From Balneolaceae bacterium (lineage in GTDB: Bacteria; Bacteroidota; Rhodothermia; Balneolales; Balneolaceae): a stretch of DNA of 56,207 nucleotides. The DNA is taken from NCBI GenBank assembly GCA_020832225.1, contig JAFIFA010000110.1:1-56207 (forward strand), written 5' to 3'. Positions 51,154-54,152 of the stretch are shown one piece after another (position 1 is the stretch's first letter; every line of letters begins with the position of its first letter). The translations under genes were made by a program, and so were the position numbers. The notes under the pieces were generated by a model that made no database searches, was not told the origin of the DNA, and worked only from the letters and a program-made list of their open reading frames with translations.

Positions 51154-53136
51154 ATGAATTTTAGAATCTGTCTGAGCACACTTCTCTTTTTCATTCTGTT
51201 TTCAATTCTACCTCAGCATCTCAATGCACAAGGTGTTACTCCCGACGATATTGTATCGGTCAAGACGGTCGGTGCTGTTGTTTTGAGTGACGATGGGAGT
51301 CATGTCGCCTATACCCTGAGCGTGCCTCGCACTGAGGAGGAGGATATCGGAACCAACTACTCCGAACTCTACATCATACCGGCTTCAGGCGGTGACCCCG
51401 TTTCGGTAGTTGAAAAGCCGAACAGTGCAAGTAACCCTCAGTGGGGACCGGACGATCGGCTCTACTTTACCTCTCGAATAACGGATCACCACGATCAGGT
51501 TCAGGTCTATTCAGTAGATCGAAATGGTGGTGATTTGCAGAAACATACCAGCTCGTCTCACGGATTGAGTAGTTATGCGTGGAGCGGTGATGGTTCAAGA
51601 ATTGCCTACAGCGCAATGGACCCCGTTTCCGAAGAGCAACGCGACCGACAAGAGCGCGGATTTGATATGATTGTGGCCGGCGAGAATGAGCGCTTTATGA
51701 GGCTATGGGTACAGGATCGTGATGGTGATGCCGAAAGAGTCTCTCCCGACTCCCTCTTTATCCGAGGCTTTTCCTGGGCGCCAAACGGCAATGAACTGGC
51801 AGTGAGAGTTACAGAGAGGCCGGGAGCCGATCAGGATGAGATGTATTCAAAGGTCGGAGTTCTGAGTGCAGATGGATCTGATTTTAACGAGTTGATGAGT
51901 TCGCCAAAGAAGAAGTCGGCCATGAGTTGGTCGCCGGACGGAAGCAAACTCGCCGTTCTTGCCGGTAAAGTCTATAGCGACCCGCTTCCACAGCGGATCT
52001 GGGTTGTTGATGCAGATGGTGATGCGAAAAAGGATAAGACGCCTTCAGATTGGGAGGGAACCCCTGAGTGGATTGGGTGGATGGATGATCAGACACTGAT
52101 CTTCACTGCTGTAGAGCGTTCAACAACGGCTTTGTACCGACTCGACATCAACAATGGCGGAACCTCAAAAATGGTTGACGGTGGCGATAAGATTTTTCGA
52201 AGCGCAAGCGTGGATAGCCGAAACCGCTCCTTTGCCGCGTCTGTGAACACTAAAGAGCATCCCGGTGAGGTCTATGTAGCCGACATCCGTCGCGGTCAGT
52301 TCCAGCGACTAACCCACCATAACGACTGGCTATCGGAGAGGCAGCTTGGTGAGCAGAGCTCCATCACCTGGAAAGGAGCGGATGATATGGAGATTGAGGG
52401 CATTCTGATTAAGCCGGTTGGGTATGAAGAGGGACAGAGATATCCGCTGGCTATTCTGCCGCATGGCGGACCTGAGGGTATCAGTATGAACGGATGGAAT
52501 ACACGGCCACTCTACCCGGTGCAGGTTCTGGCTAATGAAGGGTATGTCGTATTTAAACCCAACTACAGGGGAAGCGGCGGACGCGGAACGGCATTCGCTT
52601 CAGCCAACCATCGCGATCTGGGAGGCAAGGAGTTTGATGACGTGCTTTTGGGCATCGACTATCTTGAGGAGATCGGACTGATTGATCCTGATAGGGTTGG
52701 CATCAGCGGAACCTCGTATGGGGGTTACTTTGCTGCATGGGCAGCGACTCGCCATAGCGATCGATTTGCGGCGGGCATCACTTTTGCGGGTCTCTCCAAC
52801 TGGATCTCCTTCATGGGCACAACGGATATTCCCCACGAAATGAGCGTAGTGCACTGGGATCTCTACTGGTTCGACAATCCGGGACAGAACTGGGAGCGTT
52901 CGCCCGTGGCGTGGCTCAATCAGGCCAATACACCGCTTCTGGTAGCTACCGGCCTGGCAGATGAGCGGGTGCACCCCGAGCAGTCGATACAGATGCACCA
53001 GTTCCTTGAGATGAAGGGGATTCCAACCGGATTGATCCTCTACCCTCGCCAGCCACACGGCCTCACCGAGCGCGCCCATCAGCTCGACTTTATGGAGCGT
53101 GTGATTGAGTGGTTTGGGGAGTATCTCGAACCTTAA
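51154..53136 (+). CDS. S9 family peptidase, secreted
   Basis: A 660-residue exported serine peptidase (signal peptide ends LNAQ). The N-terminal half is a propeller with WSPDGSKLAVLAG-type repeats. The hydrolase half has the nucleophile in SGTSYGGYFAAW (Ser521), the Asp in GLADERVHP and the His in RQPHGLTERA. It begins with the same GVTPDDIVSVKTVGAVVLSDDGSHVAYTLSVP phrase found in the protein at 1-2047 (GVTPEHVAKMKQVTSSVISEDGSHVAYTVSVP), so the two are paralogues. It probably trims peptides taken up from outside. Confidence 0.93.
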   Translation: MNFRICLSTLLFFILFSILPQHLNAQGVTPDDIVSVKTVGAVVLSDDGSHVAYTLSVPRTEEEDIGTNYSELYIIPASGGDPVSVVEKPNSASNPQWGPDDRLYFTSRITDHHDQVQVYSVDRNGGDLQKHTSSSHGLSSYAWSGDGSRIAYSAMDPVSEEQRDRQERGFDMIVAGENERFMRLWVQDRDGDAERVSPDSLFIRGFSWAPNGNELAVRVTERPGADQDEMYSKVGVLSADGSDFNELMSSPKKKSAMSWSPDGSKLAVLAGKVYSDPLPQRIWVVDADGDAKKDKTPSDWEGTPEWIGWMDDQTLIFTAVERSTTALYRLDINNGGTSKMVDGGDKIFRSASVDSRNRSFAASVNTKEHPGEVYVADIRRGQFQRLTHHNDWLSERQLGEQSSITWKGADDMEIEGILIKPVGYEEGQRYPLAILPHGGPEGISMNGWNTRPLYPVQVLANEGYVVFKPNYRGSGGRGTAFASANHRDLGGKEFDDVLLGIDYLEEIGLIDPDRVGISGTSYGGYFAAWAATRHSDRFAAGITFAGLSNWISFMGTTDIPHEMSVVHWDLYWFDNPGQNWERSPVAWLNQANTPLLVATGLADERVHPEQSIQMHQFLEMKGIPTGLILYPRQPHGLTERAHQLDFMERVIEWFGEYLEP

Positions 53137-53144
53137 ACCTCCAC

Positions 53145-53572
53145 AAACATGGTATGTCTCGCAGGGGAACATCGGGCGGTTTAGTGTTTCTGTGGCAAAA
53201 GACATACCATGTTTCTTGCCATCTCAACGAACCATTAAACATGGTATGTCTCGGAGGGAGAACATAGTCTTTCCTTTCAATTAGCTCATCAAATGCGGTT
53301 TAGTGTTTTGATAGCAATAGACATACCATGTTTTTTGCCATCTCAGCGAATCTTTAAACATGGTATGTCTCGGGCGAGCAACTTAGTTTTACTTTTCAAT
53401 TAGCTCATTGATGGCGTTTAGTATTTTGATAGCAATAGACATACCATGTTTTTTGCCATCTCAGCGAATCTTTAAACATGGTATGTCTCGGGCGAGCAAC
53501 ATAGTCTTTCCTTTCAATTAGCTCATTAAGGGCGGTTTAGTGTTTCTGTGGCAAAAAAGACATACCATGTTT
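53145..53572. repeat. Array of four inverted-repeat units built on AACATGGTATGTC
   Basis: Left arms AAACATGGTATGTCTC lie at 53145, 53237, 53356 and 53474. Right arms AGACATACCATGTTT lie at 53200, 53319, 53437 and 53558. Units are 70, 97, 96 and 99 bp. A right arm and the next left arm are always 22 bases apart, so three 15-bp hairpins with 22-nt loops can form between units; the loop is identical between units 2-3 and 3-4 (TTTGCCATCTCAGCGAATC...). Each arm also contains its own dyad ACAT-GGT-ATGT. It lies between two plus-strand genes (S9 peptidase and DinB-like). It resembles REP/BIME-like or MITE-type extragenic palindromes. Interiors are homologous, not unique, so this is not CRISPR. Confidence 0.93.
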
Positions 53573-53612: not shown

Positions 53613-54152
53613 TTGAAAAAGAAATCCCTTACTGCTTTCAACCAGATCGAAGCCCAAAGAAGCGGCATTGTTTCGCTCTATGAGAGTCTGTCACCCGAAC
53701 AGCTCAAATTTAAACCGGCCGCCGATCACTGGAATCTGCTTCAGGTGATGAAGCACCTGATCATTGCAGAGGAGAAAACCCTGCAATACATACGAAGGAA
53801 GCTTGAACACCATGAAAAAGTACGCAAAGCGGGTTTTGGAGCAACCATCAGAAATCTGATGCTAAAAGTGGCACTGGCTCTTCCTCTGAAATTCAGGGCA
53901 CCGGCCGTTGCGGAGGTGAAGGAGGAGCATCCGGATCTGTCTGAAATGATCAATGAGTGGAATGGCATCCGGAAGGAGTTTGGGGAGATCATCAGACAAA
54001 ACAGCGATGAGATTCTCTCCAAAGAGCTCTACCTCCATCCGCGGGCCGGTAAGCTGAGCGTTATACAGGCACTACAGTTTACGCAGACTCATATATCCCA
54101 CCATCAGAAGCAGATGAAGAGAATTCAGGATCACAAAGAGTTTCCGGGTTGA
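53613..54152 (+). CDS. DinB-like metal-binding protein
   Basis: A 179-residue four-helix-bundle protein of the DinB/YfiT superfamily, starting at a TTG at 53613 with a weak CTCAGG upstream. The putative metal His residues are in WNLLQVMKHLIIAEEK and in FTQTHISHHQKQMKRI. Members include thiol transferases and many of unknown function. The promoter, if independent, must lie inside or beside the inverted-repeat array immediately upstream. Confidence 0.85.
   Translation: MKKKSLTAFNQIEAQRSGIVSLYESLSPEQLKFKPAADHWNLLQVMKHLIIAEEKTLQYIRRKLEHHEKVRKAGFGATIRNLMLKVALALPLKFRAPAVAEVKEEHPDLSEMINEWNGIRKEFGEIIRQNSDEILSKELYLHPRAGKLSVIQALQFTQTHISHHQKQMKRIQDHKEFPG

Follow-up and report, generated by a model that had tools for sequence, protein, structure and literature searches.

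A very probable tandem array of four REPINs behind a peptidase gene in a Balneolaceae genome, and its GTAG-less REP family

The contig analysed here (56,207 nt, Balneolaceae bacterium, assembly GCA_020832225.1; the whole stretch is referred to as the window) carries a block of alternating inverted repeats at positions 53145–53572, which raises the question of what the repeats are and how they came to lie between two genes. The block is made up of eight exact 15-bp copies of AAACATGGTATGTCT or its reverse AGACATACCATGTTT, which start at 53145 (+), 53200 (−), 53237 (+), 53319 (−), 53356 (+), 53437 (−), 53474 (+) and 53558 (−) and thus strictly alternate in orientation. The array of eight words noticed in a preliminary description of the locus is therefore real, and the exact word length is 15 bp. 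Taken as inverted pairs, the words are the arms of four units, which, like the linkers between them, have no strand of their own: unit 1 (53145–53214, arms 53145–53159 and 53200–53214, interior 40 nt), unit 2 (53237–53333, arms 53237–53251 and 53319–53333, interior 67 nt), unit 3 (53356–53451, arms 53356–53370 and 53437–53451, interior 66 nt) and unit 4 (53474–53572, arms 53474–53488 and 53558–53572, interior 69 nt). These interiors replace the 24–70 bases given previously, and unit 1 is an internally deleted copy. Linker 1 (53215–53236, CTTGCCATCTCAACGAACCATT), linker 2 (53334–53355, TTTGCCATCTCAGCGAATCTTT) and linker 3 (53452–53473) are all 22 nt long, as had been described; the second and third are identical, and the first deviates from them at four positions. 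Two versions of the right interior, also reported before, are both present, with TTTCTGTGGCAAAA in units 1 and 4 and TTTTGATAGCAATAG in units 2 and 3.

The preliminary description had proposed a search of the genome and its relatives for further copies, and these were found both genome-wide and genus-wide. In the 3.37-Mb genome of the window (G000), the 13-nt core AACATGGTATGTC occurred in 50 exact copies, compared with about 0.1 expected, on seven contigs (C10, C11, which is the window, C20, C59, C173, C196 and C223). Nearly all exact cores were found in pairs of a forward and a reverse copy with a spacing of 82–84 nt, and a strict paired pattern (defined below) counted 23 units. Every array lay outside likely genes, and the neighbours were unrelated genes across the genome. 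A merely local duplication or an assembly artefact might be suspected, since the assembly consists of 231 contigs and units 2–4 are similar; against this, interior identity among the units of the window array is about 0.81, that is, about 19% divergence, and copies are present in many independent genomes and contigs. The array is therefore not merely a local duplication, and we dismiss this explanation altogether.

To the 22-nt linkers the preliminary description had given a special role, as loops of hairpins formed by neighbouring units. In the other arrays of the same genome the linkers ranged from 11 to 30 nt, while the unit of 92–96 bp, from forward to reverse arm, was constant, occurred singly elsewhere and flanked RAYT genes in related genomes. 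Since linker length varies between arrays, the 22-nt loop is no general property and the forward-to-reverse unit is. Hairpins with 22-nt loops thus found no support as functional unit and are not what moves; the constant 22 nt in the window array is a by-product of tandem duplication. Mean interior identity within arrays was 0.81–0.90 across this genome, whereas the interiors of the window array matched those of its other arrays at 0.46–0.54, compared with 0.51 for shuffled sequence. This contrast fits the earlier suggestion that the array expanded by recombination, but gives no sign that it did so from the middle. The arrays on C10, C20, C59 and C173 have one interior family in common.

Three other loci of this genome deserve mention. 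On C10, six REPINs form an array of about 700 bp (L038:3306-4018) between apparent infC and rpmI/rplT genes, which usually form one ribosomal operon. On C20, a different Y1 transposase gene stands amid its own repeats around GGCTGAAAGCC (L039:2850-3950), apparently a second REP system. On C205, toxin-antitoxin-like genes that resemble VapC/PIN and nucleotidyltransferase components alternate with units, about 850 bp apart, that have the variant arm AAAAATGGTATGTC (L044:5002-6847), and the contig ends just past the third unit.

When the whole array was compared with related genomes by BLAST, matches were obtained in its own genome only; because the interiors differ, an arm pattern was used instead. 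The arm, with at most one mismatch, was present in 27 of the 28 genomes of the window's genus. Units were counted with the paired pattern ATGGTAT-N58-82-ATACCAT, with the reversed pattern as control. Many genomes of the genus were strongly enriched (23 to 37 units in the richest, control 0–1), the remaining ones were near background, and G087, from another genus, had 53 units (reversed control 0–1). Among 117 distinct units from 18 genomes, related units being counted, the unit consisted of a 15-bp arm, about 66 variable bases and the inverted arm, and was 92–96 bp long in 111. The same 117 units gave the arm consensus A[AG]ACATGGTAT[GT]T[CT]T, which spans 15 bp and is sharply delimited at either end: A[AG]A stands at the outer boundary and a variable RTTC at the inner one, with no GT[AG]G tetranucleotide.

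Each arm is itself a dyad, A[AG]ACAT-GGT-AT[GT]T[CT]T, in which a 6-bp stem encloses the 3-nt loop GGT. The stem is perfect in the AAAC..GTTT and AGAC..GTCT variants and has one A.C mismatch in the variant of the window's genome (AAACAT-GGT-ATGTCT); the perfect form AAACAT-GGT-ATGTTT is present in G024. At the three variable positions of the arm, both arms were changed in 36, 40 and 20 units and mismatched in 4, 2 and 3, respectively, and the columns just inside the arm agreed between the two ends at about chance level only. As the same variant is nearly always found in both arms of a unit, the two arms evolve together. Such matched variants fit base pairing and recognition by one protein alike and do not by themselves discriminate between them. 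Covariation within one arm, between the outer A/G and the inner C/T, was not evident, the A..C mismatch type being the commonest.

Among the readings offered in the preliminary description was mobilization in trans by a Y1/RAYT-type transposase, and the related genomes strongly support it. In G025 (C29) a 195-aa ORF fits exactly into the space between units, and a related ORF is placed likewise in G024 (C289). The NCBIfam model REP_Tyr_transpos ('REP-associated tyrosine transposase') matched the ORF with an E value of 1.4e-15, which is below the curated cut-off of the model, and the HUH motif NHFHFL (HFH) and a YIHRNP motif are invariant in four members of the clade. Searching the PDB by sequence with the clade RAYT gave no match. 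An AlphaFold model, confident for residues 5–128 only, gave 4ER8 as its best PDB match in Foldseek (E 9e-7, probability 1.00), the structure of the Escherichia coli RAYT bound to a REP hairpin, followed by the IS608 and ISDra2 transposases. The Pfam Y1_Tnp profile found other Y1 families, such as that on C20 of the window's genome, and detected the cognate RAYT marginally or not at all.

RAYT loci were collected with this protein as query, and those at least 52% identical to it were defined as the clade. Units lay within 700 bp of the RAYT in six of six clade loci and in none of 31 more distant ones (p = 4.3e-7, the loci of related genomes being partly dependent); of these six, the G002 copy is incomplete and lies at the end of a contig. 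In G087, which was picked for its many units, the closest RAYT was embedded as predicted beforehand, with six units upstream and five downstream. Whether copies flank a Y1 transposase gene, a check suggested at the outset, can thus be answered affirmatively for the related genomes. The arms beside clade RAYTs are mostly of the GGTATTT version, and the window's genome has GGTATGT. Other RAYTs of the same genomes have dyads of their own, for example AGACTTCCGAAGTCT in G007 and AAACCTCCAAGGTTT in G012. The clade is probably RAYT group 5, or TnpAREP subclass 2.6, which its non-GTAG REPs fit.

The assembly that contains the window (96% complete, 231 contigs) had no RAYT of this clade; the best match, on C58, has 34% identity and no units beside it. 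Either its REPINs are orphans or their RAYT gene went unassembled. In an assembly of 231 contigs, where genes flanked by repeats easily drop out because repeats disrupt assembly, the orphan reading is likely without being proven. In G021, which has units and only seven contigs, the clade query likewise found no match, which makes a real loss of the RAYT plausible there.

The short, dispersed units of constant length, with perfect 15-bp inverted ends and sharp borders, could also be read as MITEs belonging to a DDE insertion sequence of the classical terminal-inverted-repeat type, moved by double-stranded cut-and-paste with the arms as transposon ends. The transposase between the arms, however, is a Y1 HUH protein and not a DDE enzyme, the arms are themselves stem-loop dyads, as is typical where single strands are recognized, and the RAYT has full REPINs, rather than single ends, on either side. 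We therefore consider a DDE origin very unlikely.

Integrons offered another comparison, since attC arrays, like the array studied here, are tandem sites with inverted ends, and a chromosomal integron seems common in the window's genus: integron integrases scoring over the TIGR02249 cut-off were present in 15 of 28 genomes, that of the window (G000:C145:17721-18659, L151) and 14 relatives (also L153:12627-18036). The layout on C205, with units every 850 bp or so among toxin-antitoxin-like genes, is what a cassette array or CALIN might look like. The repeats beside the integrase of G003, however, are canonical (TAACAA...CGTTATA) and unlike the arm, so that the true attC-like repeats of the genus are another sequence; no arm units lay near any of the eight integrase loci examined, and the units have no R or L boxes and are scattered far from integrases. 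Identity with integron attC sites was rejected, and we regard it as scarcely conceivable for the arrays.

At the locus itself, the peptidase gene (51154–53136, + strand) ends 9 bp upstream of the array, which is extragenic, and 40 bp past the array a gene for a DinB-superfamily protein begins (53613–54152, + strand; PF12867, E 4e-16). Its TTG start (53613) aligned with the TTG at which the G026 orthologue begins (L218:1814). The array does lie directly upstream of a TTG-started DinB-like gene, as first described. The upstream gene encodes an S9-family (prolyl oligopeptidase-like) enzyme. In G026, whose DinB protein is 52% identical, the two orthologues are adjacent, about 52 bp apart, with no units between them; this site documents absence there rather than a precise empty site. 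The lack of units there means that either one lineage gained the array or the other lost it. In two other species, G024 and G033 (L225, L226), units with other arm variants lie behind the S9-peptidase orthologue, and the region behind this gene may be a repeated insertion site across species. The simplest reading of the window site is that one REPIN was inserted and then amplified in tandem.

These positions, together with the dyad arm, would also suit an array that is primarily regulatory for the host, as eight sites for a dimeric protein or as a structured RNA or bidirectional terminator for the 3' end of the peptidase message. Folding is indeed strong (z = −5.8 for the array as RNA, z = −3.4 to −5.6 for single units as DNA). 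The identical unit type nevertheless stands beside unrelated genes genome-wide, the majority of S9-peptidase orthologues have no units, the interiors are unrelated between arrays, and the Rfam search of the array gave nothing above the gathering score, with a sub-threshold miRNA match to the palindrome only. A primarily regulatory nature thus appears most improbable; a secondary regulatory role, beside the REPIN nature of the array, is conceivable.

Taken together, these results make it very probable that the repeats form four REPINs in a BIME-like tandem array, from a GTAG-less REP family whose partner is the clade RAYT. The units have inverted ends at a constant distance, dispersed extragenic copies, ends capable of forming stem-loops, a spacer less conserved than the ends, and matched changes at both ends, as REPINs do; in related genomes a RAYT gene is flanked by REPs of the same family, and the protein has the HUH Y1 fold over the modelled residues 5–128, with 4ER8 as closest structure. 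The GTAG-tagged REP superfamily has a GT[AG]G foot at one end of the palindrome (PMC3733652); as the arm has no such foot, we do not place the array there. REPINs are known as a kind, and the family in these salt-loving Balneolaceae appears to be undescribed so far.

Judging by how the units are distributed, they are presumably mobile. In the mechanism we propose, single strands of a unit would fold through their arms, and the RAYT would recognize the arm hairpins, cut beside them and re-insert the unit elsewhere. Single-stranded REP hairpins are bound by other TnpAREP proteins, which cut at dinucleotides beside them (PMC8266576); this chemistry of recognition and cutting, shown biochemically in part for those proteins, is inferred here. 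Behind the S9-peptidase gene, a single inserted REPIN would have been amplified on the spot into four units. The REPINs of this genome would now be orphans, unless the RAYT gene is simply absent from the assembly, and any function of the array for the cell, such as 3'-end stabilization or termination, would be secondary.

The build of the arm recurs more widely. In a sample of 54 RAYT loci (L244-L323) from Balneolota and Bacteroidota-type genomes, 15-nt dyads with a 6-bp stem and a 3-nt loop were 7.7-fold denser within 350 bp of the RAYT gene than 1–2.5 kb away, and were present at 46 of the 54 loci. Examples beside Bacteroidota-type RAYTs are AAACCTGACAGGTTT, AAACCTATAAGGTTT and AAACTTCCGAAGTTT; such dyads often come in inverted pairs with a span of 33 nt, and the window arm is built alike. 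Other odd loop lengths were enriched near RAYTs too, in part because of nested palindromes. At the level of sequence, the 15-nt dyad with a 3-nt loop gives the 'atypical' Bacteroidota REPs a putative definition. More tentatively, group-5 RAYTs of Bacteroidota and Balneolota might share GTAG-free 15-nt-dyad REPs, each with a 6-bp stem and an asymmetric 3-nt loop, in inverted doublets of about 33 or 96 nt, and orphan REPINs might persist in several species whose genomes have no cognate RAYT, with another RAYT or a host function perhaps maintaining them; we regard this generalization as possible but doubtful.

For the poorly known GTAG-less RAYTs, the family supplies a defined REP, with its sequence, its architecture, a matching RAYT clade and natural arm variants. 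It can therefore be asked how group-5 RAYTs recognize DNA without a GTAG guide, and how REPIN populations persist without a RAYT.

Among known systems, the closest in architecture are the REPINs of Pseudomonas fluorescens SBW25, which are replicating REP doublets (PMC3116915). Both are inverted REP doublets with a link to a RAYT, conserved ends (about 16 bp in SBW25), a less conserved spacer of maintained length, matched end changes, and dispersed, extragenic copies. The window family differs in its AT-rich 15-nt dyad arms without a GTAG-type foot, in interiors that are unrelated between arrays of one genome, and in its host, a member of the Balneolaceae and not of the Proteobacteria. With BIMEs, in which REPs are regularly spaced and alternate in orientation, and with the REPs that flank RAYT genes (PMC2817692), it has in common alternating regular REPs, some adjoining a rayt gene, and inter-REP segments that recur inside a cluster but change from one cluster to the next; the window array differs in REP sequence and RAYT group, and no cognate RAYT was found in its own assembly. 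The REPs of TnpAREP subclass 2.6 (group 5, mainly Bacteroidetes) have no GT[AG]G and a weaker secondary structure and were found by eye, and the main text of that study gives no REPIN consensus for the subclass (PMC6006769). Our clade resembles it in its NHxH and YIHxNP motifs (NHFH and YIHRNP are each one residue off the published NH[LIV]H and YIH[QN]NP), in the missing GT[AG]G foot, and in 'atypical' flanking structures of which the genome has further copies at other places; unlike in that subclass, the REP is here defined, as a 15-nt dyad with a 3-nt loop arranged in doublets of about 96 bp.
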